A program made the position numbers and the translations under genes. A DNA stretch of 64,000 nt, from assembly GCF_042453785.1 (NCBI RefSeq), contig NC_091675.1, positions 1,376,501 through 1,440,500 on the forward strand, given 5' to 3'. The DNA is from Malus domestica. Taxonomy: Eukaryota; Streptophyta; Magnoliopsida; Rosales; Rosaceae. Of the stretch, positions 32,839-61,114 are shown in pieces. The notes under the pieces were generated by a model. The model was not told the DNA's origin. It saw nothing but the letters and a program-made list of their open reading frames with translations, and did not search any database. Numbering within the stretch: position 1 is the stretch's first letter; each line of letters starts with the position of its first letter.

Positions 32839-33380
32839 TGATGAAATTGAGGTTCCACCATAAAACCAATTGGCAATATGAGGAGTAGCCCAAGATCCTA
32901 TAAGCACATAGTAAACCTTGTCCCTCACCAATGTGGGACAACTCTCAACACGCCCCCGCACGTGTGGCGGATTTTCAAGCCTACACGTGGACAACAACTG
33001 GGTGACATAGAGCGCGTGTGGCCGTTGGGCTTCACACGTGAACAACCTTGCTCTGATACCATGATGAAATTGGGGTTCCACCATAAAACCAATTGGCAAT
33101 ATGGGGAGTAGCCCAAGATCATATAAGCACATAGCAAACCTTGTCCCTCACCAATGTGGGACAACTCTCAACACGTCCCCGCACGTGTGGCGGATTTTCA
33201 AGCCTACACGTGGACAACAACTGGGTGACGTGGAGCGCGTGTGGCCGTTGGGCTTCACACGTGGACAACCTTGCTCTGATACCATGATGAAATTGAGGGT
33301 CCACCATAAAACCAATTGGCAATATGGGGAGTAACCCAAGATCATATAAGCACATAGTAAACCTTGTCCCTCACCAATGT
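32839..33380 (-). mobile_element. Tandem TRIM array: LTR-internal-LTR-internal-LTR
   Basis: Three terminal repeats, 32839-32950 and 33062-33173 (112 bp each) and 33285-33380 (truncated), are separated by two internal regions of 111 bp (32951-33061 and 33174-33284). On the minus strand each LTR runs from TGTTGAGAGTTGTCC to TTTCATCA (TG...CA). It is followed directly by tggtatcagagc, an initiator-Met tRNA primer-binding site. A G-rich tract (complement of cccccgca) sits just before the next LTR. There is no coding region. The repeat-internal-repeat-internal-repeat order is expected from unequal recombination between LTRs or from a multimeric TRIM. Confidence 0.85.
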
Positions 33381-33488
33381 GAGAGTTGTCCCACATCGGT
33401 GAGGGACAAAGTTTGCTATGTGCTTATATGGTCTTGAGCTACTCCCTATATTACCAATTGGTTTTATGGTGGACTCTCAATTTCATCA
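33379..33488 (+). mobile_element. Inverted TRIM LTR abutting the array
   Basis: A 110-bp copy of the same LTR in opposite orientation (gagagttgtcccacatcgg ... tttcatca) joins the truncated third LTR head-on at about 33380, so the right edge of the array forms a near-perfect palindrome. It ends at the LTR terminus CA (33488). Confidence 0.8.
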
Positions 33489-34444
33489 AGGTCTTCATCA
33501 ATTTTCTGGAGACATCCTTAGCTAAAACCTCATTAGTAGGTATTCCGGCAATCAGTTTCTCAATTCACCTTTAGTGGGGTCAGTTAAATGGGTAAACTTT
33601 ACCCACTTCTCAAACCCTACTTATTCCTGCTTGTTCGTACTCGAATCATCAACTTTAACAGGTTTAGATCCACACACGCAAGCAGACAGACACACACAAG
33701 TGAGAGAGAGAGAGAGAGAGAGAGACCTATAGGCTGCCGAGGAGCTCATTGTTCAGCTCATGATTTAGCAAACCCACGGTTTATATTCGAGATAAATTAG
33801 TTTGGTTCCATTGTTCACAACTGTAGGATATCAAAGAATATATCTGCACAAATAATGAAAATTTTGATAAATATATAAAATAAAAACTATCAGGAAGCAA
33901 GAGTCGTAAAAAACTCTGATACGTAAAACATAAGGAAATTAGATTACAGCTTATGCGAAAAAATTGCATAATTGAACTTAGACCATTGGTTTGAAAATTC
34001 AGAGAAACAGCATGGTTTCCTGTTTCAGTACCACAATATGAAAATCTAGCTGGGGTAGTTAATATGCCATGTGGGCTTTGATGAAACACTGAAGGTAGTT
34101 GATACATCACTTTCCCTGCAGGGCCCAGAAATTATTTCATCAGTTTTTCCTAATATCCAATTAAACTTCCATCCATCTTACAACAAGGTGTTTTATCACG
34201 TCTCTTCTTCCCTCATTAATCTCTATTAACTTTATCAGTGCAGTGTGACAATATGTAAGTACAAAACCCACATGCCATGTTTATGTTTAAACAATTACAA
34301 AGTTGCATTATATATGCATAACTCAATCTAAAGTAACTGCGTACAAAGGAAATACAGAAATAATGGCCATAATTTACAGAAAAAAGACTTGGTACTTACT
34401 CATAATCTTTAAGTAAAGTATCCTCCATGGCATTGTAACTAATC
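33489..34444. other. Intergenic and IPK1 3' region
   Basis: A (GA)n run lies at about 33701-33725. No gene is supported between the TRIM array and the last IPK1 exon. Confidence 0.5.
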
Positions 34445-37159
34445 TCAATTGGCGGTTTTAAGAGCCACTGTGCTTGTAGTTTTCTTTTGTCTCTCCTCAG
34501 TTTCTACCATTTGATTGTAGCAGCTTACAATCTTTTTGTCCAACTCATAATATTCTTCCATCTTCCCCAAATGTTTCAAATCCAGGTCAATGAAATTCAC
34601 CTAGAAAAATGCAGCTCAATAAGATATTAGTGTCATAATGAATGATTTTTCGCATGGAATTTCACTTTTCAACTTGGAGAAAGTAGTGATTACAATTTTT
34701 ATGTGCTCTAGCCGTTAAGAAATGGATAGATTACTAGAGGAAACCTTTCAAGAATGAAAACTAAAAACTAAAACCAATTAAGCTTCCAAATGAGGACAGA
34801 ACGTGTTATGGTAATAGACAGAACAAAGTAGTAAAGGGATATTTACCTTGTAATCAAAAGATTGGTTGGTTGATTCTAGATGCAAGTTATTATAAGGAGA
34901 TTCTGGATTCCCATCTTTCCTTGGTCTAAAACTAATCATCAAACTGCAGTCCTTTGCACTAGTAGCAATCAAGAAGTCCTTCACAATCTTCAAGCTTTCA
35001 TCCAAAGACATGGAATGCAATGACAAATATTTCTGTGACACTTCTTCTTTACCCAATTCTCTGCATACCATGCAAGGCTCAGAAATTATGTCATAATACG
35101 CATGGATAGCTCCATCGATGTCAAGATTATCAAGTTTCTGGACCTCAAGGAGCCGATCCAACACTCCAGATTTATGAACTGTTTCAGCAATAAGCTGTAA
35201 AAAACTCTTTGTGCGCAAGCCATCACCTCCCTGAATGACACCCTTAAGTGCATCTTCAAATGCTCCCCCAATTGCCAAATTGGTGCTGTGTGCACCACCG
35301 CCTAAGCCCCCAAATATTAGAGAACCATTCAAGAATACACGGAAGTTATTCTGTGGGGTTGAGAAGAGATCCTTGATTGCCTTATGTATCCTGTCCTTGG
35401 ATCCAGAGAATAGATCGAGTGGATCATATTCACTATATTCTGATATCTGCAACATACATTTAGAAGCATCCAAGTCAGAATTGAACATTACTATAACCGG
35501 ACTCGCTTTGCGGAAATTTGTGCACAGAAGTTCTAAGAATCAGATAAGATGGCATTCCCATTGGGCATATGAATACGTTCCGGTTTAGTAAAGAAGTTAA
35601 CCAAGAGAATAACATATTAAAAGAGTACCTCTCCATCATGAAATTTCAGGGCTTGGTGCATCCTAAAACGAGTAATGCTTCGTTTAATGGAATTTCCTTC
35701 ATCAATGAACCTTGAAGATGGGAGAAATCCACATTTTGGCTATTTTTGGAAACAATTGAAATGAAAAGGGAATTGTCAATTATAATTCAAGGGTATTCCT
35801 CCAGTGAATAAAAGAGACAAAAATTTACACAAGTACCTTTATCTCTACAGATATAGAGGGTTCAACTTCTTGAGTAACTGAAAAGAACAAAGCAGAATAA
35901 GCTATCACTTAAAACAAACAATAAAAAAACGCAAATTTCTTATCATATATGCCACAAGACAATATTTAAATAGATGTGTCTACATTGAATAAGATACAAA
36001 TTTCCTATGATGCTAAGCAGAAGGCTATCTCCAGGTTTCTCTTCCTGCTTTTCTGAGTTGTAGTGTAGGTGCCAGGTGTTATATTAACCCATACTTTATC
36101 CGCGAAATGTAAAAGTAAAGTGATAATTTCAAGTGGAAGCAAGGAAAACCGGCATGCAAAAGAAAACCTGGATAATAGGCTAAATAAGCCATCCGACTTT
36201 GGAGCTAAATTAAACCATCACACAGAATACCCTGTTAACTCGAATTGCTAAGATTGACAGACAAGTGCAGAACAGTGAGTTCTAAATGTAAAAGTTGTAA
36301 ATCACAGAGAGATGCTAATTACCACGAGAAAAAAGAGAATGATCAGACATGAGAAGCACAGTATCACTTTGTGTGCCAACTTTAGTGGCATCAACTCGAG
36401 AAGCAGGACGCTGACTAATAACGTTCTTCTCAACTGACTCCAAGAATTCCCTGGAAACAGGGACACGCATCTGCCAAAATTCAACTTGAAGGTTATAGAA
36501 CAATACAATATGTAACTCTTAAACCATTCATGCACAAGTTCAAAGAAAAACTAAACATACAAACTATATTGACACAGTTTTAAAACCTTTATGCATAATT
36601 ATCCAGGAAAGAAAGACAAAACATTGACATAGCTTCCGTTCAACAAACATTATTCATTTGTACATGTATAAACTCAGATTTTCACATACCCCAGCATCAA
36701 CGTACGCAGAACCCAATAAAGGGCTCATGATGTGCTTCACATAGAGTTGGCTGGCAAGTTCTTTGTTAGAGGTAGCTACAATGTCGTCCATGTCTTTCCA
36801 CAAAAGAAGTTCGTGTGCGGTTAATGCCGTGGGACTGTTCGAGGCCTTTGACCCATTAATTCGAGCTTTCTGCAACCGCATTACTTTACCAATCTACAGA
36901 CAGAAAAACACAAAATTTCCCAAGCATGACAATAAGAACAATCATTACCCAATTCCAACTCCCTTCACGAACTACTACAAATTTTCAACTTTTTCCTTAA
37001 AAAATAAAATAAAATATTAAAATGCAGGATTGAAGCTCAGGGTAGAGTGAAACATACAAAAGTGGGGGAGGATCCGGTGTAAGCGAGAACAAGATTAGCA
37101 GCCCCTTCGCCTCTGTAAGCCCAATCACCAGCGTCTTTCTTCTCCAAAACGACCTCCAT
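34445..37159 (-). CDS. IPK1: Inositol-pentakisphosphate 2-kinase
   Basis: Seven exons on the minus strand, in coding order: 37058-37159, 36690-36893, 36323-36470, 35837-35877, 35629-35739, 34847-35446, 34445-34600. All introns are GT-AG and the product is 453 residues, about the length of other plant IPK1 proteins. It phosphorylates inositol pentakisphosphate at the 2-position to make phytate (InsP6). The family is shown by RGEGAANLVLAYTGSSPTF at the start, VDAG and DHSLFSRG in the middle, VEIKPKCGFLPSSRF (Lys residues contacting phosphates in known structures), EYDPLDLFSGSK, NNFRVFLNGSLIFGG, KLDNLDIDGAIHAYYD, SAKDCSLMISFRPR and the C-terminal NFIDLDLKHL, the expected metal-binding acidic motif. 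All these blocks are intact, so the gene looks functional. Its upstream side is cut short by a retrotransposon nest about 360 bp before the start codon. Confidence 0.95.
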
Positions 37160-37521
37160 ATCTCGCCGGTGGCCGCGTTTCAGCTGCTCTCCGTCACTAC
37201 ACATTCCAAAAATCCCATCTTTCCCATTTCTTCAAATACCCAAAACCAAAATTCTGAAGAAAAAAAATCGAAATTTTGCATGTACCTGATCGATGAGATA
37301 AGATTTGGGTTTTTGCGTTTCTGGGTTTTCTTCCACCTTGCAGGAATCAGCTGACACGAACTACACCCACCCAGCTCGCAAAGAGACGATTTTATAGAGA
37401 TAAGGCGACGACGAAGTCGCAGTGGGGGAATCTCTGATCACTTGGTCACTCGCTTCCTTCCACCTTTACTGAAAGCTTAGGAAGCAACCAAAACCCAAAA
37501 CCCACTAAATTAAATATATAT
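37160..37521 (-). promoter_or_regulatory. IPK1 promoter and 5' leader (retained copy)
   Basis: A TATA box (CTATAAAA on the minus strand, 37390-37397) predicts transcription from about 37365. A leader exon then ends at a good donor (atcag|gtaca, exon end 37286), with an acceptor near 37185-37195, so the leader holds a short intron. At 37521 recognisable promoter sequence ends and Copia-derived sequence begins shortly after. Confidence 0.6.
37206..37521. repeat. 316-bp direct repeat, copy 1 (IPK1 leader/promoter)
   Basis: Matches 46346-46661 without indels at a constant offset of 9140 bp. By eye I count about ten mismatches. Confidence 0.92.
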
Positions 37522-37539
37522 CATACTTTTCACCATATC

Positions 37540-38995
37540 AAGTAACGTCTTTGTTCTTCTCTGCCTTACAATCTTTCTTGCCTTTCCAATTGGTTTTCAA
37601 AAACTTCAAGTGCCATGGATTTTTCCAAAATTATGTATACATAACAAAACCTATAAAAATCATCTATGAATATGATAAAATACTTGTTTCCTTCAATGGT
37701 TTTCTTAGGAAAAGGACTACAAATATCCATATGAATAATTTCCAAAAGTTGGTTATTAACTTTTCTTTGACACACGCCACGCAAAATTCAAAATCATCAA
37801 GGTTTAATAAAGGCAAAATCTCATTTTTAACCAAAAGTTCCATTCTTCATTTTGAAATATGGCCAAAGACTTAAAGATTGCCGTGACTTATTATTTGGAT
37901 TTTCCACGTTAAAATCATTTGGTCATAACTCAACTTAAACTTAAACATTCCATCGATAAGTAAACCAGTGACATGAGAAGAATTATAAAAGAAAAACGTT
38001 GAAGTCAATGTTATTCATAGTAAAATAAAATCCCAACATAACTAGCTTTGAAATTGAAATCAACTTCCTTCTCATAGAATGTACATAAATGACATTTTCC
38101 AATTCTAAACAAAAACCAAAAACAAATTTGAGCCTAATGTTGCCTATAGCCTTGACTTTAGCTCTTCTTCATTGCCAACGGACACTTTCACTTCATCTTT
38201 ATTTGGAATTGTCCTTGTTGTGAAGTTCTGCAATGAGTTCGTAACACGAATAGAAGAGTTAGAGTCAAGCCACCAAGCATCACTAGGCATATCAAGCAAA
38301 TTAGACTCAAAACAAGCAAACAAGTTTTTACCTTTCTTCTTCATGTGGCAAGCCAAGCCTTATACAAAAACAACACTTGAAAATCGATGGCTTGTTAAAT
38401 TTGGAGTTTCTTTTAGGGGAGGGAACCCTTTTGGTAGAATTCTTTCTTGTAGCATCGGTGTTTGAAGGCATATGTGCCTTGGTGACACTTTGTACATAGT
38501 TCACAGACTCAATTTTCTCAAACTCCTCATTTTGATACTTTTTCATACTTTCTTCTTCACTCATACATTTTGAAATTAACTCATTCATATCCCACTTATC
38601 ACGCAATGCATTGTAGGTCATTTTGAGATGTGTATAACTATCAGGCAGAGAATTCAATATCACATGTACCAAGAAAGTTTCAGGGATTAGTACCTCGAGA
38701 GCTTTGAGTTTTCCAGCGATGTCCACCATTTTTAAAATGTACTCACGCATACTCTCTATGCCATCATGTCTTATGGTTGTCAGTGAATTCATGAGATTAC
38801 CTGTTTCAATTTTTGGTGACTCATGGTACTTTTCTTCAATGGACTTAATGATATAGTTTGTCTCAGTTTTTGGTGACTCTCAGTACTTCTGATCAATGCG
38901 CTTGAGAAAATCCTTTGCGTTTGTAGCATCTGTGAAGGCTCCTCGAACCACATCAGTCATGGACCTTTTGATTATCATGAGGCATAAATTTTGAG
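37540..38995 (-). mobile_element. Degenerate Copia fragment (gag, protease, integrase pieces)
   Basis: On the minus strand, from right to left: gag-like sequence with a duplicated KxxES block (about 38990-38800), a longer gag stretch (38328-38792) including DSYTHLKMTYNALRDKWDM, the protease start WWLDSNSSIRVTNSLQNF (about 38240-38290) and an integrase piece (37566-37784) with IIHMDICSPFPKKT and NKYFIIFIDDFYRF. Frames are broken and reverse transcriptase is absent, so it is dead. The protease catalytic Asp-Ser-Gly is changed to Asp-Ser-Asn. Confidence 0.8.
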
Positions 38996-39007
38996 ATCAA
39001 AAGGGAC

Positions 39008-39310
39008 ATGAGGAGAGGTTTATTGGGACTATCGCAGAGAGGCTACATAGAGAAGGTTATAAGAAGATTCAATATGTCGATGTATGGAACTACAGAAATA
39101 CCGACATCCAAGGGAGACAAGTTGAGTAAACAACAGTGTCCTACAAATAACTTAGAGAAAGAAGGCATGCAAGACAAGTTATATGCATCACTGGTTGGGA
39201 GCTTAATGTAAGAGAATATTGAGGTATCTTCAGAGGACTAAATCTCACATGTTAGTCTACAAAAGAATTGATGATCAATTGGTCCTAGAAGGATATAGTG
39301 ATGCAGATTT
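39008..39310 (+). mobile_element. Degenerate Copia reverse transcriptase/RNase H fragment, left part
   Basis: Reads LGLSQRGYIEKVIRRFNMSM and DKLYASLVGSLM, then broken frames up to LVLEGYSDADF. The reading resumes on the other side of the young Copia at 44497, so the two parts were once continuous. Opposite orientation to the gag/integrase relic at 37540-38995. Confidence 0.8.
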
Positions 39311-39898
39311 TGTTAGGAATGTCGGTACTACAAGATAGAGAATGCACAAAGTAAAGTAGAAAATGGACACCAAAAATTTATGTGGTTCGGCAATTTATGC
39401 CTACGTCCACCAAACAAGGAACAATCTTCACTATATGAAAAGATGAGTACAACAAGAGTAGTCTTACCAAGCCAAAGACAAGGCTTGATGGATACAAGAA
39501 AGTAGGACACACACTTTTTATCACACTAAACTTCACTCACACAATGTGTAGTGGAACACTCTCACTCTCACTCTTGGAGTGGAACTCTAGCTTTGGACTT
39601 GATCCTTTGCTACTCACTACTCTCTTAATTTTGTTACATCACACCCATATTTATAGGTGAGGGCTTGGCATTCTACTAGTTTCTAGTTCCTTCTTCAAAC
39701 CTCTAGTATAGAAAAATCTAGACTAGCCACATACTTGTAGCTTCTAGATCTTTCCATTTGCAACCAAGGAAGCTAGTACTCTCTAGCTTCTTCCATCAAC
39801 TTAATAACATGCTAGAATTGTCTAGCAAGCTCCAGCCTCATCTCTTGCTTACTAGAATAATCTAGAACATTGATCATGGGCTGGACCATATACCAACA
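39311..39898 (-). repeat. 3' LTR of the young Copia
   Basis: 588 bp. A TATA-type promoter motif (TATAAATATGGG on the minus strand, about 39643-39656) is present. Almost identical to 43909-44496. Confidence 0.95.
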
Positions 39899-39946
39899 AT
39901 CTCCCCCTCCAGTCCATGAGGGAGGAATTCCGATCATGACTCCAAG

Positions 39947-42900
39947 TTACCTGGAGTTCATCCCAGCAGCCTTAATGCAAAATTCCAACTTTGATTTTGT
40001 GACTACCTTTGTCAACATGTCTGAAGAATTATTATCGGTATGAATCTTCTTCAGCTGTAGCAACTTGTTCTCGATAGCGTCTCTAATCCAGTGATAACGA
40101 ATATCAATGTGCTTAGTGCGTGAATGATATGTAGTGTTCTTGCTCAAATCCAGAGCACTCTGACTATCACAATAAACGCCATAATCACTTTGCTTCAAAC
40201 CCAACTCTTGGAGAAACCGCTTCAGCCACAACAACTCCTTGCATGCTTCTGTAGCGGCTATGTATTCAGCCTCGGTTGTGGACAAAGCAATGCACTTTTG
40301 TAACTTGGATTGCCAAGACACGGCTCCCCCTGCAAAAGTAAACAAGTACCCAGACGTAGATTTTCTACCATCCAGGTCACCTCCCATGTCAGCATCTGTA
40401 AATCCTTCCAAGATTGGTTTGGAACCGCCAAAGCACAAGCACATCTTAGAAGTCCCCTTCAAATATCTGAGAATCCACTTAACGGCTTCCCAGTGGTCCT
40501 TCCCTGGATTAGAGAGAAACCTGCTCACCACACCTACTGCATAAGCAATATCTGGTCGTGTGCACACCATTGCATACATGATACTTCCTACTGCTGAAGA
40601 GTAGGGAACAACTGCCATTTTCTCCTTTTCTTCATATGTTTTTTGACACGACTCTTTGCTCAACTTGATATGATTGGCTAAAGGTGAGCTTACCGGTTTG
40701 GCTGCTTTCATGTTGAACCTTTCAAGCACCCGTTCAACATACTTTTCTTGTGACAGCCACAACTTCTTGGATTTTCTGTCACGAATTATCTCCATGCCCA
40801 AAATCTGCTTGGCTGGCCCTAAGTCCTTCATGTCAAAGGACTTAGATAACTCTTCTTTGAGCTTTTTAATCATAGAAGCATCTTGTCCGACAATCAACAT
40901 GTCATCAACATAAAGCAATAAGATGATGAATGTACCTCCAGAAAATTGTTTGATATAGACACAAGAGTCAGCATGAGTTCTCTTGTACCCATTACTCACC
41001 ATGAATGAGTTGAACTTCTTATTCCACTGTCTCGGAGCCTGCTTAAGACCATATAAACTTTTCTTAAGCTTGCACACCAAATTTTCTTTACCTTTGACTT
41101 CAAAGCCTTTGGGTTGCTCCATGTATATCTCCTCTTCTAAATTGCCGTGGAGAAATGCAGTTTTAACATCTAACTGCTCGAGCTCAAGATCCATGCTTGC
41201 TGCCATACCAAGGATAACTCGAATAGAAGTCATCTTCACCACCGGTGAGAAAATCTCATCAAAGTCAACTCCTTTCTTTTGACCAAAACCTTTGACAACC
41301 AAACGAGCCTTGTACCTTGTCATGTTGTCGTCTCTTTTCAATTTGAACACCCACTTGTTTTTCAATGCTTTCCTGCCCTTTGGAAGCTCCACCAGCTCAT
41401 AGGTATCATTCTTTGATAAGGAATCCATCTCCGACTCCATTGCCTTCATCCATTTGTCACTGTCGTTATGAGCTCTGGCCTCCTCATATGTTTCGGGCTC
41501 TCCATAATTAGTCAACATGATATACTCTGATGAAGAATACTTGGTAGACGGTCTTCGACTTCTGATGGATCTTCTGACCTGATCTTCATTCTCTTGTAGG
41601 GCTGGAGGCTCCCCCTGATTGGGTTCTCCTTGAATATGCTCTTCTTGACTAGGCTCCCCCTGATCAGCAATCTCATGGTTTGGCACATCTTGATCAGGCT
41701 CCTCTTGATTAGCATTATCTGATTCTGCAGGCACTTCATTGGCAGTTGCTTCAGGGATGTCATCGTGACTTTCTTCATCTGAAGCTAATGGATCAACTCC
41801 TCTGACTGCGCCATCTGGTTGTGCCTCTTTATCCGAATCCCCAATTGTTTGTTCTTCATAAAAGACCACGTCTCTACTTCGGATAAACTTCTTCTGGTAT
41901 GGGTCCCATAATCTGTAACCAAAATCTTCACCGCCATAACCAAGAAAGATGCACGGTGTAGCTTTGTAGTCTAACTTCGATCTCTGCTCTTTGGGCACAT
42001 GCACAAAAGCTTTGCAACCAAACACCTTCAGATGAGAGTAAGACACATCATTACCAGTCCATACTCTTTCTGGAACATCAAGACCTAATGGTACTGATGG
42101 AGATCGGTTGATCAAATAGCAGGCTGTCCTTACAGCTTCACCCCAGAACTGCTTAGATAACTTTGCAGTCCTCAACATACACCTGACTTTCTCCATGATG
42201 GTTCGGTTCATTCTTTCAGCAACACCGTTATGTTGTGGAGTTCCAGGAACTGTCTTCTCATGACGTATGCCATGTTTTACACAATACTCTCTAAACTGGT
42301 GAGATGTGTACTCGCCGCCGTTGTCGCTACGAAGGCACTTGAGAGGTTTCCCAGTTTCCCTCTCCACCATGGCATGGAACTCCTGGAATGTCTGAAACAC
42401 CTGGTCTTTGGATTTCAACAAATACACCCACACCCTTCGTGAAGCATCATCAATATAAGTAACAAAATATTTATTTCTTCCAAGTGACTCGACTTCCATG
42501 GGACCACACACATCTGAATAAACAATATCTAACAAGTTTCCTTTCTTTGTAGATGGAATCGAAAAACTAATTCTTCTTTGTTTTCCTAATAAACAGTGCT
42601 CACAAGAGTTTAACGACGTACCTTTGGCAAAGGGAATGTGAGACTTCTTTGCCAAAACCTGTAGGCCTTTCTCGCTCATGTGACCTAGCCTCTTATGCCA
42701 CAAGTCTAGAGATGAGTCCTCCACAGCATTCAACTCACCTTTCAAAACCTTGGCATTTGACCGGTACAACGTACAACAAAGTCGTGCTCTTGCTACCACC
42801 ATTAAGCCTTTAGTAAGCTTCAATTTTCCTTCGCCAATATGGTGATAATATCCTTGTCGATCAAGGGTACCAATGGATATCAGATTGAGACGTATATCAG

Positions 42901-43873
42901 GAATATGTCTCACATCTTTCAACATCAATTGGCAGCCGAGATTAGTTCTTAGACATATATCACCAATTCCAAGAATTTTGGAATAGCTTTCATTCCCCAT
43001 CTTCACTATGCCAAAGTCACCTTCTTTGTATGTACTGAAGAACTCCCGTTTGGACGTAGCATGGAAGGAAGCTCCATTGTCAAAGATCCATTCAATGTCT
43101 CTGTCAGAGTTGCCCATATGCAGACATTCACCAACAGACAATATTTCTGGTACATCACCACATATGACAGCAGTGGTATTGCCAGTATCATCTTTCTTCT
43201 GATTGTTTCCTTCCCTTTGCTCTCTCTTCCAAACTCGACAATTTTTCTTCATATGGCCTTCTTTGCCACAATGGTGGCATGCACCCCTGAACCTTGACTT
43301 GGATCGGCTAGGACTCCTGCCATGACCTCTAGGTCCTCTACTCTTGCTTCTTCCGCGGTTCTCTGTGACAAATACTTGGCTGCTATCTGTGCCAGAAGTC
43401 ACAAAGGTCTCCCAACTGTCTGGCAAGGATCCAAGTAACAAGAGCGCTTGTAGCTCGTCCTCGATCGTCATTTTCATAGTAGCCAACTGGTTGATGATAT
43501 TCTGGAAATTGTTCAAGTGTTCTGCTACACTTAAACCATCCTTGTACTTCACATTGATGAGCTCTTTGATCAAGAAGGCTTTCTTGGCTGGGGTCTTCTT
43601 CTCGAACAAGGACTCAAGCTTCGTCCAAAACTCGCGAGCATTGGTTTCATTAGACACATGGTGAAAAACACTATCATCCACCCATTGTCTAATTGTGCCA
43701 ATAGCCTTGCGATTCATCTTCTTCCACTCGGCATCGGACATGCTCTCGGGCTTAGCGGCATCTCCTTCAATTGGCTCATGCAAATCCTTGCAATATAGAA
43801 TGTCCTCCATCCTTGGCTTCCATGTTACCCAATTGGAGTTGGTGAGTTTGATCATAGTGCCACTTCCTTCCAT
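39947..43873 (-). CDS. Copia gag-pol polyprotein (GAG-PR-INT-RT-RH)
   Basis: A single frame of 1308 residues from the ATG at 43871-43873. The open frame extends upstream to 43945, but that part overlaps the primer-binding site and LTR and is unlikely to be translated. Domains in order: gag (start MEGSGTMIKLTNSNWVTW), zinc knuckle CHHCGKEGHMKKNC (43238-43279), aspartic protease FDNGASFHAT (about 43060-43090), integrase with HKRLGHMSEKGL, the catalytic Asp in SDVCGP, Asp in RSDNGGEY and Glu in GVAERMN, reverse transcriptase with AFLHGNLEEEIYM and YVDDM (40898-40912), and RNase H with TDADMGGDLDGRKSTSGY and STTEAEYIAATEACKELL. The frame is unbroken. The protease active site reads Asp-Asn-Gly, not the usual Asp-Ser/Thr-Gly. 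The product would form the particle, process itself, copy the RNA and integrate the DNA. Confidence 0.95.
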   Translation of the reverse strand: MEGSGTMIKLTNSNWVTWKPRMEDILYCKDLHEPIEGDAAKPESMSDAEWKKMNRKAIGTIRQWVDDSVFHHVSNETNAREFWTKLESLFEKKTPAKKAFLIKELINVKYKDGLSVAEHLNNFQNIINQLATMKMTIEDELQALLLLGSLPDSWETFVTSGTDSSQVFVTENRGRSKSRGPRGHGRSPSRSKSRFRGACHHCGKEGHMKKNCRVWKREQREGNNQKKDDTGNTTAVICGDVPEILSVGECLHMGNSDRDIEWIFDNGASFHATSKREFFSTYKEGDFGIVKMGNESYSKILGIGDICLRTNLGCQLMLKDVRHIPDIRLNLISIGTLDRQGYYHHIGEGKLKLTKGLMVVARARLCCTLYRSNAKVLKGELNAVEDSSLDLWHKRLGHMSEKGLQVLAKKSHIPFAKGTSLNSCEHCLLGKQRRISFSIPSTKKGNLLDIVYSDVCGPMEVESLGRNKYFVTYIDDASRRVWVYLLKSKDQVFQTFQEFHAMVERETGKPLKCLRSDNGGEYTSHQFREYCVKHGIRHEKTVPGTPQHNGVAERMNRTIMEKVRCMLRTAKLSKQFWGEAVRTACYLINRSPSVPLGLDVPERVWTGNDVSYSHLKVFGCKAFVHVPKEQRSKLDYKATPCIFLGYGGEDFGYRLWDPYQKKFIRSRDVVFYEEQTIGDSDKEAQPDGAVRGVDPLASDEESHDDIPEATANEVPAESDNANQEEPDQDVPNHEIADQGEPSQEEHIQGEPNQGEPPALQENEDQVRRSIRSRRPSTKYSSSEYIMLTNYGEPETYEEARAHNDSDKWMKAMESEMDSLSKNDTYELVELPKGRKALKNKWVFKLKRDDNMTRYKARLVVKGFGQKKGVDFDEIFSPVVKMTSIRVILGMAASMDLELEQLDVKTAFLHGNLEEEIYMEQPKGFEVKGKENLVCKLKKSLYGLKQAPRQWNKKFNSFMVSNGYKRTHADSCVYIKQFSGGTFIILLLYVDDMLIVGQDASMIKKLKEELSKSFDMKDLGPAKQILGMEIIRDRKSKKLWLSQEKYVERVLERFNMKAAKPVSSPLANHIKLSKESCQKTYEEKEKMAVVPYSSAVGSIMYAMVCTRPDIAYAVGVVSRFLSNPGKDHWEAVKWILRYLKGTSKMCLCFGGSKPILEGFTDADMGGDLDGRKSTSGYLFTFAGGAVSWQSKLQKCIALSTTEAEYIAATEACKELLWLKRFLQELGLKQSDYGVYCDSQSALDLSKNTTYHSRTKHIDIRYHWIRDAIENKLLQLKKIHTDNNSSDMLTKVVTKSKLEFCIKAAGMNSR

Positions 43874-43908
43874 CTCGTAGTACGAGCCAACCGGGCTCTG
43901 ATACCACT

Positions 43909-44496
43909 TGTTAGGAATGTCGGTACTACAAGATAGAGAATGCACAAAGTAAAGTAGAAAATGGACACCAAAAATTTATGTGGTTCGGCAATTTATGCCT
44001 ACGTCCACCAAACAAGGAACAATCTTCACTATATGAAAATATGAGTACAACAAGAGTAGTCTTACCAAGCCAAAGACAAGGCTTGATGGATACAAGAAAG
44101 TAGGACACACACTTTTTATCACACTAAACTTCACTCACACAATGTGTAGTGGAACACTCTCACTCTCACTCTTGGAGTGGAACTCTAGCTTTGGACTTGA
44201 TCATTTGCTACTCACTACTCTCTTAATTTTGTTACATCACACCCATATTTATAGGTGAGGGCTTGGCATTCTACTAGTTTCTAGTTCCTTCTTCAAACCT
44301 CTAGTATAGAAAAATCTAGACTAGCCACATACTTGTAGCTTCTAGATCTTTCCATTTGCAACCAAGGAAGCTAGTACTCTCTAGCTTCTTCCATCAACTT
44401 AATAACATGCTAGAATTGTCTAGCAAGCTCCAGCCTCATCTCTTGCTTACTAGAATAATCTAGAACATTGATCATGGGCTGGACCATATACCAACA
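43909..44496 (-). repeat. 5' LTR of the young Copia
   Basis: 588 bp, followed (minus strand) by two bases and the initiator-Met tRNA primer-binding site. Confidence 0.95.
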
Positions 44497-45508
44497 GATT
44501 TTGCAGGTTTTCTCGATGATTTAAAGTCAACTTCTAGTTATGTGTTCATGATAGCTAATGGAGCTGTCTCTTAGAGGAGTGCCAAGCAAGACATGCAAGA
44601 CATCATTGCATTCTTTGACAATGGTGGTTGATTACTTGTCTTGCTGTGAAATTGTGAATTAGGTAGTTTGGTTTAAGAATTTATCACTGGTATTCATATT
44701 GTTGACTCAAAGAACAATAAGAGATACAATACTACAAGGAACCCGGAGATTAAGTTTCTTGTTGCTCGTGAAAAGGTGATGATTGATTTGGTTAAAATTT
44801 ATTATTTGGAGACAGGTTCTATGATAGCAGATCCGTTGAACTAGGCCATTACAATGGCAATATTCAAGAAACATGTGAAGAAGATGGGCGTATTGGCTGA
44901 TTTTGATATTGAAGAATAGTGGGAGTGAAGGTGAATGTTTTCACATTATGTTCTCTGATTGCAGTATTTTGTTTTTTTTCATATTACATGCATAATGTTT
45001 TCGCATTATGTTCTCTGATTGCAGTATTTTGTTTTTTTCATATTACATGCATAAAGACTTTGTATTTCAATTATCTTAGCTAATAAAGTATTGTGCTGCT
45101 TAGTTGCAAAGGTTTTCCCAGAAAAGTGCAATTTTTTGATGTAGTACATTAAATTGTTATGAAAGAAAGCAACTTAAAGGCTTCAATTCGAAGCAATAAA
45201 GGATGACTAGTATACTAGTCTTAAAGAGGACCTTAATGGAGGATGTACTGCAGAAACATTACATTTTATATATCTTTCATTATTTTCATATCTTGTTGGA
45301 GTTTCTTGTGATTGCTGATTTCATGATTGTAATTCTGGGGATAATATTTGTGTATTAAGATATGATTCCCTTTAGTTCTTCATGGATATTAGTTTTTGAC
45401 TGAAACTTGTAATCGTGGATTTTGTTAATACTAAACTCATGGCCATTCAAGTATGTTCTCATATCAATAAGTATTTGTATTAAACAAGTGTTGGCTCTAG
45501 TGGGAGAA
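44497..45508 (+). mobile_element. Degenerate Copia RNase H end and 3' tail, right part
   Basis: Continues the broken RNase H reading: DFAGFLDDLKSTSSYVF, ANGAVS with a stop in place of the usual Trp, and later IADPLN before a stop. A 3' untranslated tail follows with a 50-bp local duplication (about 44940-44990 versus 44995-45045). A purine-rich tract, agtgggagaa, ends just before 45509. Confidence 0.8.
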
Positions 45509-45955
45509 TGTAAGTCTAATAAGAGTTGCACACTTGTTTAGCACGTGCATGAGGGATTGAGATCATAAGAGTTTATGTATGACAATACTTGTTGGTTATT
45601 AAGGAATGTATAAAGATTGAAATATAATCTAAAGGAGTCCCGGTGCAATTGGTATTAACCAATCTGATATGGATGCTTTAGATATTAGTGATAAGGGTTA
45701 TCAAATTGATGACTTTGATAAGGATTACATGATGGGAAGTATCCTTATCAAAGACCATTGTTTAAGTTATAAGTAAAGGGTCCCTACTCTCACACAATAC
45801 ACGCAAACAGAAAATATCAAGCCCCATTGATTGACAGTGCATACATACAGTGTTGAGAGGAGAGGAACCTTTATTTTCTGCTGCAATGTCTTCTCAAGGT
45901 TAGTGATTAATTGGATATGTTGAGTTATTTAGTTTCCGCTATATTTATTCTAACA
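45509..45955 (+). mobile_element. Probable 3' LTR of the older Copia
   Basis: Begins TGTAAGTCTAATAAGAG directly after a polypurine-like tract and ends ...ATTCTAACA, i.e. TG...CA, over 447 bp. The partner 5' LTR is not seen in the window, so the call rests on position and end motifs. Confidence 0.6.
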
Positions 45956-46196
45956 CTGAGCGTATTCCATTTGATGTTTTTATAGAGATTACAAGAAGTA
46001 TTTGGATGAAGAACAAACTCTTCAAATCAAAGATAATTCACAGATAATACAAAAGATAAATAACCTATTCACAGATAATACAAAAGATAACACTTGCAAC
46101 AGATAAGGTTTATCTCAGCCTTCCTTTTGACTGATTTGGTTGCGATCTTCAGTGAATGTTGTGGCGGGAACCTTTGAATTTGAACTTGGTTTATCA

Positions 46197-46296
46197 CTCT
46201 GGGGTTCGGTTGGGCCACCGATTGCAACTGTCAAGTTCTCTTGGTGACAGCTAGCCAATCATGACTATTCGATGGTCCCAACCAATTAGGTTGGAT
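46197..46296. repeat. 100-bp direct repeat, copy 1
   Basis: ctctggggttcggttgggcc ... ccaattaggttggat. It matches 47267-47366 at an offset of 1070 bp with only a few substitutions. Part of it (catgactattcgatggtccc) recurs at 46323-46342, right at the left edge of the displaced IPK1 promoter. A diverged relative lies at about 54775-54845. Confidence 0.8.
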
Positions 46297-46345
46297 TTTG
46301 CTTATAGTTCCTTTTTTTCCCATCATGACTATTCGATGGTCCCAA

Positions 46346-46661
46346 CCAAAAATCCCATCTTTCCCATTTCTTCAAATACCCAAAACCAAAATTCTGAAGA
46401 AAAAAAATCGAAAATTTGCATGTACCTGATCGATGAGATAAGATTTGGGTTTTTGTGTTTCTAAGTTTTCTTCCACCTTGCAGGAATCAGCTGACACGAA
46501 CTACACCCATTCAGCTCACAAAGAGACGATTTTATAGAGATAAGGCGACGACGAAGTCGCAATGGGGGAATCTCTGATCACTTGGTCACTTGCTTCCTTC
46601 CACCTTTACTGAAAGCTTAGGAAGCAACCTAAACCCAAAACCCACTAAATTAAATATATAT
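46346..46661. repeat. 316-bp direct repeat, copy 2 (displaced IPK1 leader/promoter)
   Basis: Same order and spacing as 37206-37521, including the TATA box (46530-46537) and the leader-exon donor (exon end 46426), but no IPK1 coding sequence follows on the minus strand. Most differences from copy 1 are C-to-T or G-to-A changes. Confidence 0.92.
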
Positions 46662-47266
46662 AAAATAAAAAAAACATAGATAAGGAATTCGTAAGATCAA
46701 CTCTACCCTTCAAAAATGAGCTGCCCCAAAGTCTATTTAATCCACTCAAGTAAATAGTAATTTACTCAAATAAAGTGATTGGCTAAGTACATCTCCATCC
46801 TTATAAAATGAGCTGGCTAGTCAATTCGTATTAACATATTATTAATTTTTTTTATATAAAATAATAAAATAAATTTATTTTTAATTTCGGATATGATTTT
46901 TAACGTATCATTATCTGAAAGTACTATTTTTGTTGATAGATTTCTGATAAGATTTTAAACTAATCCCGTCACGTCATGTGTCACTATCTGTTTAGAATCC
47001 TTTATAATGGATTTCGATAAGATTTTCAACCAATCACGTAGTGCCAGGTGGCATTATCCACAACCTCATCTATTCTTTTTTGTCCATATAAACTCTACTT
47101 CCATCCTAATTCATACACAAAACTCAAACTAACTCAAAATCATTCATCATTTTTAAATAGACTTTTCCAACTCTCTGAAATCTGTCATCCTTTTCTCATC
47201 AAATAATTCAAGGTCGAAACTTCTGCACGCATCGCTAGATGGCAATTGCATGGAATCATAGTTAGG
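46662..47266. other. Intergenic, possibly the ancestral IPK1 upstream flank
   Basis: No gene. If the promoter duplication model is right, this is the sequence that once lay upstream of IPK1. The stretch 47168-47260 is similar to 54573-54655. Confidence 0.5.
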
Positions 47267-47366
47267 CTCTGGGGTTCAGTTGGGCCACCGATTGCGTCTG
47301 TCAAGTTCTCTTGGTGACAACTCGCCAATCATGACTATTCGATGGTCCCAACCAATTAGGTTGGAT
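47267..47366. repeat. 100-bp direct repeat, copy 2
   Basis: Second copy of the 46197-46296 unit. Confidence 0.8.
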
Positions 47367-47580
47367 ATATTTATTGATATACTTTTTAATACGTTGAGAC
47401 TTGAGAGTCAATATATATACTTTTTAATATGCTGAGACTTGAGATAAATAATGTGTCTAAAATGAATAATCGTTTAACTATTTGCCAGAGCCTTGAAATC
47501 CCCTATAGCCAACAAGGTTGTCTCAATTGATAACGTCCTTGTATTGTGTGTCACCCGACCAAAGTTTGAGCCTCGTTGCC

Positions 47581-48937
47581 TGTCACATCCCGACTCACGA
47601 ATAAAGACTATTCACGAGTTAGGGTGTGAATCATATCTTAGCTATAGAAATAAATTCTACAACCAAGATATAGTGAAAAATTAAATTAAATTACAACGAT
47701 TACACTGTATAACAAATCTTTTAGACTAAAAGCTTGAGTTTAATACATATAATTTATTGAGTACGCAACTAAAATAAAATATTAGTATACAAAATTAATT
47801 CATAACAAAAGTACCAACTAAATTGAAATGGGTAACACTTGCAAATACATAAAATGTATGCAATGAGATGCATGAATGTACTCACTTCCTTCTAATACCG
47901 TCAACACATACCTAAGGCACCCAAGCCTGCACGTTCCATACCATGCTTATACCACTTGGCTCCGAATACCTTAGAGTTAACTCCCGTTCATCCCTTAACC
48001 CAATTTTTGTAATTAAACTCTCAGTTTCCACTTTATTAAACAGTCACTTCCCCCGACGCTCAATTGTATATTCAAGCCCTTCTCCCGACGCCTGACATAT
48101 ACACGATTTCATTATTTTATAATCAACCAATTTGTATACTCAAGCCTTTCATCCTACGTCTAACATATACAAGGTTCATTATTTTATATTCAAGGCAAAC
48201 TTCAACCCTTGAATATCCTCGCATGGGTTGCATATGCATTTACGTTTTCACTATGTAAGAGAGCTTTACAAAAAAATACAATGAAGATGGCCTAGAGCCT
48301 TTACATAAGGTAAAAGAAAAGGATGGTGGGAAGAGTGGTCTATGAAGAAGATAAGGTTTTTGTTTCTTTTTCCCCGTGTGTTCCTGTTGGTGGTGTGGTG
48401 GTGTTCTCTCGCCGTTTCTCTCCTCCCTCTGCTTTTATGGATGAAGAAATGGAATCATCCATTAAGCCTCAAGGACAAGTTTCACTTTGTTTTGCAACAC
48501 TTGGACATCTTGTAATTGGAAGCAATCATTCCCATGCATGTGGACAAATACTCAAAAGCCACATTCAAAGTCTAAGGATTATGAATCCCACCTCTCCAAT
48601 TTTGGAGGGGATGAGTCATCACCAAACATTTAACTCTTAGATTCCTAATGATTACAAACTTGCCAACTCACTCTTATTTGGTAAAAATATCAAGCCAAAC
48701 TCATCATAATTCCCTTATCCAATTCAAACTAAAAATATCTCTAATTACATATGAACATGAAATAATACTAGCTAGTTTTTGAAATAGTTTGTATCACAAA
48801 GGATTTTACATTGAAACTATTTTACATATCGAAAGTAGGTTCTTGCATAAAATAAATCTAATAAAATCATTATGTAAAAATAATTACCCACATACACACA
48901 CACATATAACCATTTTTTTTAAATACGGGTTATTACA
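47581..48937 (-). mobile_element. Gypsy-type solo LTR, about 1357 bp
   Basis: On the minus strand it starts TGTAATAACCCGTATTT and ends GTCGGGATGTGACA, end sequences common to plant Gypsy LTRs. Flanks ttgcc (47576-47580) and ctgcc (48938-48942) agree at 4 of 5 positions, compatible with a decayed target duplication. No primer-binding site, polypurine tract or pol sequence lies beside it, so it is a solo LTR. An open frame inside (48323-48640) has no recognisable domain. Confidence 0.65.
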
Positions 48938-49526
48938 CTGCCTGCAATTCTCTTTGGGGGACGATCTGTAAATTCCTACGTAAATCTGCTGGCAGCAGGC
49001 ATTTAAGTATCATGCATAAGTCATTCCGGCTCGAGGTTGTGGGTATGTATAAGGATTATGAATCCCACCTTTCCAATTTTGGAAGGGATGAATCATCACC
49101 AAACATTTAACTCTTAGATTCCTAATGATTACAAACTTGCCAACTCACTCTTATTTAGTAAAAATATCAAGCCAAACTCATCATAATTCCCTTATCCAAT
49201 TCAAACTAAAAATATCTCTAATTACATATGAACATGAAATAATACTAGCTAGTTTTTGAAATAGTTTGTAGCACAAAGGATTTTACATTGAAACTAGTTT
49301 ACATATCGAAAGTAGGTTCTTGCATAAAATAAATATAATAAAATCATTATGTAAAAATAATTACCCACATACACACACACATATAACCATTTTTTTTTAA
49401 ATACGGGTTATTACACTGCCTGCAATTCTCTTTGGGGGACGATCTGTAAATTCCTACGTAAATCTGCTAGCAGTAGGCATTTAAGTATCATGCATAAGTC
49501 ATTCCGGCTCGAGGCTGTGGGTATGT
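48573..49526. repeat. 477-bp tandem duplication across the solo LTR edge
   Basis: 48573-49049 and 49050-49526 are near-identical. Each unit contains about 365 bp of the LTR end and about 112 bp of flank (ctgcctgcaattctctttgg ... gtgggtatgt). The duplication therefore happened after the LTR had inserted. Confidence 0.9.
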
Positions 49527-49842
49527 CCTGACGCTGATGGTGAAAGTAACTAATCTCCCCCTAAACTTTTTGTTAAAAAAAAAAAAGAATCCCTATACTT
49601 CAATAACATATCCTAAATTATAATTATGATCAGTTGTTTCTCATTACCTTTTTTGTGTTGGATTATGCTATTAACTTATTGAACTACAGCGTCATGCTGA
49701 TAAATATAGGGGTGAATCAAATAGTTAGTTAAAGATTTGGGGCTTGAAAGTTTATATATGTACATATATGTACGATGTTAGGGTTTTGTCTGGCTGTTGT
49801 ATTTTGGCCTTAGGATTTTCCAACGTTAGGTTATAAACTTAT
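49527..49842. other. Intergenic
   Basis: No gene seen. The last part (from about 49795) is the ancestral upstream region of the first methyltransferase gene, as the same words recur after the inserted element. Confidence 0.5.
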
Positions 49843-49850
49843 AGTGCGTG

Positions 49851-50947
49851 TAGTGGCGAAGCCACGTGAGGGCGAGGAGTGGCGGCCGCCACTCCCCTCG
49901 CCGGAAAACTGGACTGGATATCTGGGTCAGCCCCTCCTCTTGCCGGAACTAAAGCCCAGGAGGAACAATTCGCCCCTCTGTTCTCGTTCAAAAACCTACC
50001 CCCTCCTAATCAGTCACAAAATCGAAAAGCACAATAGGAGGACGCCTAGGTGGGACTAGAAGGGATTAGGCAGAGCTAAGCGGAATCTGAATTTTTTTTT
50101 TTTGCAGAGCCAGCTGCGAGGAAGCAGATGACTTTGGTCTCATTTTGCACGGTTCATTTGAGATGGTCCCACCATCTTTTTAATTGCTACACGTTTTCCT
50201 TTAAATAGTCCACCATCTTCTTTCTACTTCTTTTTATTTCCTTTTATTTTGTATTAACCCCAATATCACTTTTTATTCTTTTTCATTTTTGTTGTAATGT
50301 TTTATTATACTATATATAAAAGAGAACACCTCAAAATGGTAGAACATTCAAAATGCTATAAATTGTAGTTCAAGAATTTTAAAAATTACATTGAACCAAA
50401 AGGAATTAAGGTAATTCACCACATTGTAATTTTGAATGAATTGAATTATTGTTTCTTGGTTATTGGAATTGTTATTACTGATAATTTAATTGTTGATCAT
50501 CAACATAATTATTGTTGATTAGTGATAACTTATATGATTATTGATCATTGATTAATTCAATTGTTAGTTTAATTAGTTATTAGTCATAGTAGAATTTAGA
50601 ATTAATAGTCTAAGTCATTTTTTCTTTCTTATTATACAGTTATGTAATGGAGCGATATTATAAGAAACAGTGCTTTAATTCTCATACAAAATTTTCGCGT
50701 AGTAGGTTTGATATTTATGAGTGGTTGGAGTGTAGTATAGTAAAAAATGTTGCATTTTGATGTTATTGTTATATTTTCTAATGTGATTTTTATAAAGCAA
50801 GAAATATTGGCAGCGATGTCTCCACTTAGAAAGGGTTTTTAAATGTAGAGGATTGAATTATGGACGCCATTACTATACAATAGGATTTGGTTGCTGCCAT
50901 TTTTTTACATTCGCCCCTCCCCTCTACAATTCCTGGCTTCGCCACTG
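49851..50947. mobile_element. Non-autonomous hAT (Tip100-like) element, 1097 bp
   Basis: Terminal inverted repeats: left TAGTGGCGAAGCCA, right complement CAGTGGCGAAGCCA. AGTGCGTG flanks it on both sides (49843-49850 and 50948-50955), a perfect 8-bp target duplication. The GGCGAAGCCA-type end is known from plant hAT elements of the Tip100 group. The interior has no transposase frame and is AT-rich apart from a GC-rich left part. It is inserted about 420 bp upstream of the first methyltransferase start codon. Confidence 0.85.
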
Positions 50948-50955
50948 AGTGCGTG

Positions 50956-51334
50956 CATGGATATATGTGGTCTTGCACGTGACACATGGCACACAATGTA
51001 GTACGTACTAGTTCAGGTTTTTTTTTTTTGAACGTTAGGTTATAAACTTCTCATAATCACGACGTGTGGTTGCAGTTTCTGCATGGTTCGACATAGGAAA
51101 AAAATTTCAATGTACTCGAAACACAAGAAAAATATTATATGTCATTATATATATAAGTAAAGTAAAATTTGAAAAAAAAATATTTCTATTTGTATAACAA
51201 CATATGACATATCGTTTTATATTCCAGACATATTAAAAAACCTCTCCCGAGGTCTATATATCACACCAGCATCACTTCAAGGTTTCATAAGTTTTATGTG
51301 GGTCGATCTGTGCGGAAGACAAGGGCCTGACTAG

Positions 51335-51369
<35 letters not shown>
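50956..51369 (+). promoter_or_regulatory. Promoter of methyltransferase gene 1
   Basis: One G-box (CACGTG, 50976-50981), a TATA box (ctatata, about 51253-51260) and a (GA)n run (51338-51370) ending directly at the start codon. The sequence parallels the promoter of gene 2 at 58676-58942. Confidence 0.65.
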
Positions 51370-51375
<6 letters not shown>

Positions 51376-53154
51376 GTGCTGCAAATACTTCACATGAACA
51401 AAGGGAACGGCGAGACTAGTTATGCTCAAAACTCTAAATTTCAGGTACAATTTAATTTCTAATTTTAACAACAGCGCGCAAGGATAACGAAGGATATTAG
51501 TCGAGTAGTTCTTAATTATTATTGCATGGATCTCGTTTGATTAATCTAATAATTTTTTGTAGGAAAAAATATTATCCATCGCAAAGCCAATCGTTGATGA
51601 AGCTGTACAAAAATTGTTGTGCTCAAATATAGCACCAATTGGGAGCATGGGAATAGCCGATTTGGGTTGCTCATCTGGGCCAAACACCTTCCTTCTCATC
51701 TCCGAAATAATTGATGCCATACGTGCCACACGTAGGAGCTCGTCATCATTCACAGAATTTAGAGTGTTTCTAAACGACCTCTTTAGCAACGACTTCAACA
51801 CCGTTTTTATGTCACTCCCGGCATTCTACAACCAACTAAAGGAAGAACATGGTGCTGGACTCGGGTCTTTCTTTGTCTCCGCCACGCCGGGCTCGTTTTA
51901 CGGCAGGTTGTTTCCAGCCAAGAGTTTGCACTTCGTGCACTCTTGTTCTAGTCTTCATTGGCTTTCTCAGGTCCCTTATGGCCTGGATCTCCAGGCAGCT
52001 GCCAAAGCGTTGAAAAAAGGAAAGATTTGGATTTCTAAGACCAGCCCTCAATGCGTTTTGGATGCATATTCATTTCAATTTCACAAGGATTTTTCGTTAT
52101 TTCTCAAGTCCCGGGCTGAAGAAATAATTGGTGGGGGACGGATGGTGTTGTCACTCCCAGGCAGGTCATCCTCTGACCCATCAACTCCAGAGTGCTGCTA
52201 CCAGTGGGATCTCCTAGCTCATGCATTAATGACCATGGTTTCAGAGGTACCTACATAGAAAATATCCAATATTTAGTTTTAAGTTCCTAGCAATTCTCTT
52301 CATCTCCTAAGAAGAATTTTCTTAATAATTTAACTTCTTTTTATGAATTTTTTTTTTTTGTTATTGAGGAACAATAATTCAAGAATCAAACCATAGAAGA
52401 AAACCTCTGACCTATCAACTGTTAACGTTGAGCGAAATAATAGTTGAGTGGGTAATAAGATTTGAGTTTACCTTTTTTTCTTCTTTTTTAAAATGATATT
52501 CAAGTTTTTTATTTTTTATTTTTATTTTTTTTACTAAGAATGGAGTTTTATAGACTGCTTTATGAAGAACCCATTTTTCTCTATTTTTCACAAGTAATGT
52601 TATTTGGACATACACAAGACACATTACTTAATACAGGCGAGACTCACACATTATGCCCACATTTATTAAATAGTATATGAGTAAATTTGTCAGCCTTATC
52701 ATATGTGTCCAAATTATTTTCTTATCTTTCATAAGCATATATATTTTAGCGTGTACAAATACAAACTTAATTTATTGCCTAGTAACATTTAGTATATGCA
52801 ATGGTATAGGGTCTTATCGAAGAGGAAAAGGTTGATTCCTTCAACCTTCCGTACTATGTCCCAAGTGAAGAGGAACTGAAGATGGAGTTAGAAAAGGAAG
52901 GATCATTTATAATAGACCGCCTTGAAGCCTTTGAAATTGATTGGGATGGTGGTGCAGAGATATCCGTTGTAGCCAGTGGACAGCGAGTGGCCAAGACCAT
53001 AAGAGCTGTGGTTGAGTCGATGATCGAATCTCATTTCGGAAATGATATCATGGATGATCTATTTCGTCGGTACGCCGAGCTCGTCGCGGATCACTTTTCA
53101 AAATCTAGAACCAAGTTGCTCAATTTGGTTTTGTCGGTCATTAGAAAGGACTGA
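51370..53154 (+). CDS. SABATH O-methyltransferase, jasmonate/salicylate carboxyl methyltransferase-like, gene 1
   Basis: Three exons, 51370-51444, 51563-52246 and 52810-53154, GT-AG introns, 367 residues. It would use S-adenosylmethionine to methylate a carboxyl group of a small acid. Motifs: [18 protein letters not shown] at the start, the SAM-binding block [15 protein letters not shown] (about residues 53-67), [41 protein letters not shown] (the Trp of the substrate pocket), [56 protein letters not shown] and [13 protein letters not shown]. The Ser-Leu-His-Trp form and LQILHMN start are closest, from memory, to jasmonate methyltransferases; salicylate or benzoate cannot be excluded. Compared with typical 380-residue members, the segment after IDWDGG is shortened by about a dozen residues. 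Tandem partner of the gene at 58943. Confidence 0.93.
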
Positions 53155-58551: not shown

Positions 58552-58942
58552 AACTTAACTTGATGTATGTGGTCCTGCACGTGACATAATTGGCCAACTT
58601 AACTTAATGTATGTCGTCCTGCACGTGACACATTGCACACAGCATAGTACGCAGTAAGAGTTGCGTTATAAACTTTTGCATGTATGTGGTCCTGCACGTG
58701 ACACATGGCACACAACATGGTACGCAGTGATCAATGACGACTTGTGTGGTTGCAGTACTCCCGCATGGGAGATGGAACATAGCACACGCAGTAATAAGTT
58801 GGGACGTTTGTGGTTGCAGTGCTCCCGCATGGTCCGACATGGGGTCTATATATTCACACCAGCATCATTTTAAGGTTTCATAGGGTTTTGTGTGACTCCA
58901 TCTGTGGAGAAGACGGGGCTGACTTGACTAGGGGAGACTGAG
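58549..58942 (+). promoter_or_regulatory. Promoter of methyltransferase gene 2, with three G-box repeats
   Basis: A segment containing gtcctgcacgtgaca occurs three times, giving G-boxes (CACGTG) at 58578-58583, 58622-58627 and 58695-58700. A second local duplication, tgtggttgcagt followed by ctcccgcatgg, lies at about 58744-58768 and 58809-58833. The TATA box (ctatatat, about 58846-58853) stands 90 bp before the start codon. Gene 1 has one copy of each. Confidence 0.7.
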
Positions 58943-60789: not shown

Positions 60790-61114
60790 GTTTTCTTTCT
60801 TTTTTCGTTCACAAATTAAAAATCGAGTCTCATTGTCACTTTCTTAGGTTATTGGTTTGCCGATACTTCGCCATCTATTATTGCTTTTAATTAGTTGTAT
60901 GAATGTGGTCAATTATTAAAGAGGGTTTTAGTGACAATATATATTTGATAACCGTATGAAGGAAACATGAGTCTGTTTATTATGATAAGTTAAATAATAC
61001 ATAAGTAGTTAGTTATTTAATCAACTAATTAATCACACAACTAATTATAACATACTCATGTGGCCCTTATATGGTTGTCAACATAACCTTGTATTTTTAT
61101 CCTTCTAAATTAAA
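60790..61114. other. 3' flank of methyltransferase gene 2
   Basis: 3' untranslated region then AT-rich sequence; no gene. Confidence 0.5.

Follow-up and report, generated by a model that had tools for sequence, protein, structure and literature searches.

A direct repeat of the IPK1 leader around a transposon-rich block: a probable tandem duplication later split by transposons

Introduction

IPK1 is a plant gene for phytate synthesis. At the locus analysed here the leader of IPK1 is present twice in the same orientation, and a block rich in transposons lies between the copies. This raises the question of which event placed a 316-bp direct repeat around the block and whether the gene itself is affected. 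In the preliminary description, the block was taken as a 9.1-kb retrotransposon nest, the repeat was attributed to repair or unequal exchange involving the older elements, and altered IPK1 expression was considered possible. A literature search by title gave no study of this IPK1 locus among those listed.

Materials and methods

The analysed window is a stretch of 64,000 nucleotides, C15:1376501-1440500, and positions without a contig name refer to it. Genome searches covered 651 Mb in 19 contigs. The leader pair was aligned by self-alignment of the window. IPK1 was identified by a domain search of the window frames and by a sequence search of solved structures. Assignments in the block cover 37522-44892 and 45957-46345; the LTR within the latter part was delimited by alignment of eight LTR stretches. 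TATA-like boxes, splice-donor-like sites and the composition of the leader were assigned by eye. A bacterial promoter scan was set aside as uninformative for plant DNA. The features are listed in Table 1.

Table 1. Features of the IPK1 upstream region, in window coordinates.
Feature	Positions	Strand	Basis or remark
IPK1 gene body, C15 copy	33946-37159	minus	stretch aligned to C8; gene ends not mapped
L1, leader/promoter copy joined to IPK1	37206-37521	minus	316-bp repeat
Fragment A, old Copia, gag to integrase core, ending inside the integrase domain at the leader	37522-38977	minus	domain match and integrase similarity
Fragment B, old Copia, split by the young Copia	38978-44892	plus	tblastn of the young Copia protein against both pieces separately
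Young, structurally complete Copia	39311-44496	minus	LTRs, target-site duplication, open frame
LTR of another element family	45957-46196	plus	3' terminus at 46196; about 16 bp of the 5' end missing, by eye
R', duplicated local DNA	46197-46296		100 bp, 95% identical to 47267-47366
Filler at the putative duplication junction	46297-46345		49 bp
L2, second leader copy, attached to ancestral upstream DNA	46346-46661	minus	repeat and right-flank collinearity with C8
U, ancestral upstream DNA	46662-47266		short collinear C8 pieces
R, end of the putative duplicated unit, from which R' and 24 bp of the filler were probably copied	47267-47366		

Results

IPK1 and its homeolog

The gene had been named IPK1 before, and both searches agree: the 236-aa frame 34778-35488 matches PF06090 (2.4e-52), and the IPK1 frame matches solved inositol-pentakisphosphate 2-kinase chains (best 1.4e-77). 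The gene reads on the minus strand from an ATG at 37159 and retains 362 bp upstream of the ATG before the block begins, close to the 360 bp given earlier. A second, homeologous IPK1 gene is present on C8, to which 33946-37435 aligns at 86.7%. All six exon-level rows from the IPK1 family search of the genome fall at one or the other of these loci on C15 and C8; two of the six cross stops, as expected over introns. The four exon peptides tried are open on both contigs, the C8 versions being 93.7-95.5% identical to the query.

Two further observations concern the surroundings of the gene. On C7 (C7:3604674-3605890), an ectopic fragment of about 430 bp from the 5' end of IPK1 was found, related to window positions 36885-37314 (89-93% identical); its exon 1 contains a stop, and an element of about 796 bp with inverted ends splits the fragment. 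The interval from IPK1 to a frame that encodes a heavy-metal-associated domain contains repeats in both direct and inverted orientation at 32839-33384, measuring up to 323 bp (96%).

The leader pair

L1 and L2 are identical at 306 of 316 positions (10 mismatches, no gaps) and lie on the same strand at an offset of exactly 9140, as first described; the gap between them measures 8,824 bp (37522-46345). Of the five rows that a genome search with the leader gave, two are L1 and L2 themselves, two more lie at the C8 homeolog, and the fifth is a piece of 109 bp on C7. Since the best genomic match after L1 and L2 is the C8 homeolog at 85% over query 3-230, the similarity of the two copies is far above chance level. 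Read by eye, the 316 bp extend beyond the promoter: they also take in what is likely an exon of the 5' UTR, a site resembling a splice donor and the greater part of a candidate intron of the 5' UTR. L1 carries a TATA-like box (TATAAAA, 37390-37396) and a donor-like site (CAG/GTACATG at 37285), and both are retained in L2 (46530-46536 and 46425). The TATA-like box is altered in the C8 leader.

The differences between the copies are skewed. Eight of the ten are C or G in L1 and T or A in L2, none is the reverse, and two are A/T differences (p ~0.008 in a sign test done by hand and picked after the data had been seen). C8 sides with L1 at four of the eight skewed sites, i.e., at 118, 119 and 217 in both alignments and at 173 in one. 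Sites 165 and 166 fall at an alignment gap, where C8 favours the L1 state by eye alone, and at sites 111 and 246 C8 carries a third base and gives no polarity. Concerning the A/T differences, the C8 alignments place the change at site 69 in L1; at site 285 it is placed in L1 via the C8 stretch CAACCTAAACCC, which was matched by eye, while the automatic alignments do not place it. The shift of L2 from C/G to T/A fits deamination of a methylated, unused copy. L2 is most likely silent and decaying, cut off from IPK1 by 9 kb; the two A/T changes that the C8 comparison places on L1 count against a decay of L2 alone.

Comparison with the C8 homeolog

In the 30 kb of C8 examined (E 1e-8), the block is absent and the leader is single. 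Alignment of 46662-51400 against C8 10300-19100 gave eight rows, seven of which are in order between 46667 and 51390: 46667-46696, 47162-47222 and five that begin at 49603 and reach the methyltransferase gene at 51357. The eighth (51338-51380) is inverted and out of order. Within U the C8 alignment is limited to pieces of 30 and 62 bp, and the piece at 47162 also resembles window 54562-54653, hence it is weaker evidence of collinearity. No match to 37522-38900 was found in C8 10300-19100. On C8 the leader is thus followed, past an insertion, by DNA in the same order as that to the right of L2, and the insert to the left is unmatched there; on this comparison, L1 keeps the ancestral connection to the gene and L2 the one to the upstream DNA. 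The start of this upstream DNA is now about 9.5 kb from the ATG, which agrees with the earlier statement that more distant upstream DNA has been moved away.

On the gene side, the IPK1 5' region is 80-88% identical to C8 in each 50 bp from 37160 to 37459, whereas 33 of 50 positions agree at 37460-37509; farther upstream, the collinearity consists of short pieces only. The C8 homeolog has an insertion of its own, MITE-like and with 28-bp imperfect inverted ends (C8:1839518-1839842), at roughly the position where the C15 leader is cut on its upstream side.

The flanks bear on a reading in which a single mobile element picked up the IPK1 leader, either in LTR-like fashion or by transduction, and the 316-bp pair marks its two ends. 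Direct repeats bracketing a 9-kb transposon block and a third leader fragment on C7 are what such an element might leave, but L1 is continuous with the gene and L2 with the ancestral upstream DNA, so that both are DNA of the locus, and the C7 fragment spans other coordinates and is split by an element with inverted ends. We regard this origin as extremely improbable.

Some repeats beyond the upstream region were also observed. The methyltransferase gene occupies 51251-53229 (its frame 51614-52258 matches PF03492), and about 7.6 kb further along, at 58843-60852, lies a second copy that is 77-85% alike; the intergenic stretches near 47162-47340 and 54562-54850 are alike as well. At 48570-49526, a unit of about 478 bp stands in tandem at about 97% identity.

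Transposons in the block

Fragment A shows similarity to Copia on the minus strand at 37560-38162 and 38328-38792, with a PF14223 match on the latter stretch and integrase similarity at 37560-37748. The left block edge, 37522, falls within the integrase frame; since fragment A stops there, this position is not an element terminus. An origin of the repeat as the integrase target-site duplication of a Copia was therefore rejected: 316 bp compares with about 5 bp, the left edge is inside the integrase frame, and the young Copia already has a GATTT duplication of its own. In this respect the earlier argument, that the duplication is too long for a Copia integrase, stands.

Fragment B, which runs opposite to fragment A, is made up of the end of a reverse transcriptase (38984-39208) and an RNase H (44497-44892; a weak match, 23% identity, E 1.3e-5). 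With 37522-39309 as query and 40 of 163 candidates scored, none of the 67 listed non-self rows spans the whole stretch and none passes query position 1465 (~38986), which fits a border between A and B that is a breakpoint of this locus. Inside fragment B lies the young Copia, which accounts for 5,186 bp of the block. It has 588-bp LTRs with two mismatches, the 5-bp target-site duplication GATTT and a 1332-aa open frame (39947-43945) with gag, integrase and reverse transcriptase domains.

The LTR near the right edge belongs to another family. All 21 other listed genomic copies end at the position corresponding to 46196-46201, four pairs among them are spaced 4.57-4.62 kb, and self-comparison revealed 290-bp LTR pairs in three of six fetched loci. 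The pairs and the shared endpoint identify 45957-46196 as an LTR and the following 100 bp as local DNA. The right side of the block was also considered as one element's own 3' LTR; this was rejected, as none of the six fetched family loci matches 44497-45955 or 37522-39310.

The right edge of the block

A search with 46100-46345 gave 24 rows: the query itself, the 21 LTR copies and two local rows (47267-47366 at 95% and 54780-54850 at 82%). As very common words are passed over in the genome search, the local status of R' holds for the matches listed. The stretch 46197-46345 was considered as the end of a mobile repeat and rejected, for the mobile part stops at 46196 and R' is local. The last 24 bp of the filler are an exact copy of 47328-47351 and overlap L2 by 4 bp (CCAA); no source was found for its first 25 bp. 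At the duplication junction (46296-46346), local DNA is thus joined to the leader via filler, with no recognised transposon DNA. A search of 46662-47500 against the block for remnants of U gave nothing but R' and the 24 bp copied into the filler, and these derive from R.

Two earlier statements need revision here. The block contains transposons, including the complete Copia, as had been said of a 9.1-kb nest, yet it spans only the 8,824 bp between the copies, and R' and the filler are not transposon DNA. Repair or exchange remains the favoured kind of event, without the proposed role of the older elements, given that the junction reads local DNA, filler, leader.

The composition of the junction also bears on two other origins. 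In one, a staggered break of about 316 bp would have been filled in at both ends and the gap plugged with transposon-rich DNA from elsewhere, in a single patch insertion. The left insert edge, which is no element terminus, would suit a patch, and according to the accessible part of a rice study, tandem duplications attributed to repair are common among plant insertions (PMC7971508). A foreign patch is, however, not expected to end in R', which is DNA of the same locus and starts exactly at the LTR terminus. Furthermore, 316 bp is long for this class: as far as the same excerpt goes, the share of tandem duplications in rice is 70% of events at the start of the size range, falls to 5% by 200 bp, though it then stays at 5% up to 15 kb (PMC7971508). 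We consider a patch unlikely.

In the other, the assembly would have joined two haplotypes end to end, one in which transposons replace U between leader and R', the other transposon-free with L2, U and R. A copy divergence of 3-5% would suit two alleles, and the junction of block and L2 is exactly where such a join would fall. Against this, the window contains no N, the 49-bp filler with its 24-bp templated copy bears the mark of repair rather than of a plain join, and among the five rows of the genome search no further near-identical leader copy appeared as a leftover haplotig. An artefact of this kind is quite unlikely.

Discussion

A tandem duplication of at least 1 kb

Along the window the observed order is L1, transposons, R', filler, L2, U, R. 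An order of L, R', filler, L2, U and R is the expected outcome of a tandem duplication of L-U-R: L1/L2 and R'/R are two pairs of direct copies of neighbouring DNA from the locus, and their order and orientation agree with it, while the U part of the first unit (U1) is missing. The pairs have diverged to the same order (10 of 316 positions for L1/L2, 5 of 100 for R/R'), both far above the young LTR pair (2 of 588), which supports a joint duplication. The duplication junction lacks long homology and shows filler, templated 24 bp and a 4-bp overlap. On these grounds, the locus probably arose when L-U-R, a stretch of 1,021 bp or more (at the least 46346-47366), was duplicated in tandem, and the first unit was later invaded and partly deleted. 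The view that the duplicated unit was the 316 bp itself is thereby abandoned; the unit would measure 1.02 kb or more, with 316 bp of it left on one side of the transposons and 100 bp on the other.

The following course is proposed. An illegitimate event, presumably end joining, would have made a direct tandem duplication of L-U-R just upstream of IPK1. It would have left the 49-bp filler at the junction, of which 24 bp, seen as an exact copy, came from R. An LTR element may then have entered the first unit at the border of U and R, and other Copia pieces may have arrived there too. A deletion or rearrangement would have removed U1 and cut the integrase of the old Copia, leaving L1 and R' as remnants. 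The young Copia inserted into the old Copia later, as its target-site duplication shows. IPK1 would thus have kept L1 with the core promoter, and L2 would have stayed on the ancestral upstream DNA, 9 kb off and most likely silent. The same product could also have come about if one allele already contained the transposons and an unequal, non-homologous exchange with an allele lacking them made the duplication. The arrangement left would be the same, and the order of the duplication and the first transposon insertion is not fixed.

Several points weigh against the tandem duplication. U1 itself is not seen, and its former presence is deduced from R' and L1; the first 25 bp of the filler lack a source; the C8 rows to the right of L2 include an inverted one, and those within U are short; the divergence is 5% for R/R' and 3.2% for the leaders, albeit with small numbers; and the opposite orientation of fragments A and B needs an extra inversion or separate arrivals.

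Consequences for IPK1

The core promoter of IPK1 looks untouched. As the gene keeps nearly all of the upstream DNA that can be aligned with the C8 homeolog, a strong effect on expression is not indicated; likewise, the strongly conserved upstream part is still on IPK1, hence a large loss of regulation is not indicated. Judging from sequence, the effect on the gene itself is probably small. The earlier suggestion that the changed upstream region may alter expression is weakened in two ways, by C8 similarity nearly confined to the retained leader and by the insertion that C8 itself has at about the same boundary.

In an alternative reading, L2 would be a working distal promoter. Its transcripts, for want of the native acceptor in the second copy, would splice from the conserved donor at 46425 over 9 kb of transposons to the acceptor of IPK1. 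If L2 were active in this way, the ancestral upstream DNA would still drive IPK1 via a giant 5' UTR intron. We consider this very unlikely. With L2 idle, the locus offers a natural promoter pair, one on the gene and one apparently unused and shifted towards T and A.

Comparison with known systems

Tandem duplications from double-strand-break repair have reportedly been described in plant genomes by Vaughn and Bennetzen in 2014 and by Schiml, Fauser and Puchta in 2016, and the event proposed here is an ordinary kind of plant genome damage. A repair duplication can pass for a transposon footprint once transposons and a deletion have consumed most of one unit. LTR-retrotransposon nests occur in plant intergenic DNA, and the block is like them in having a young complete Copia with a 5-bp target-site duplication within older truncated elements; unlike in such nests, the long direct repeat at its flanks is not element-made.

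In mouse and human cells, small tandem duplications can arise through fill-in and end joining, according to the accessible part of one study (PMC8355091); the part of another at hand contains no direct precedent for this case (PMC6097286). Perfect tandem duplications reach 4.9 kb in rice according to the excerpt cited above (PMC7971508), thus a duplication of 1 kb is long but within that range.

The IPK1 locus is like the plant duplications from double-strand-break repair in the direct-orientation copy of adjacent DNA, here with filler and a 4-bp overlap at a non-homologous junction. It differs from them in a unit of at least 1 kb that is longer than most (up to 4.9 kb in the rice excerpt, PMC7971508), and in that this unit has since been split by transposons, with two remnants of the first unit left.
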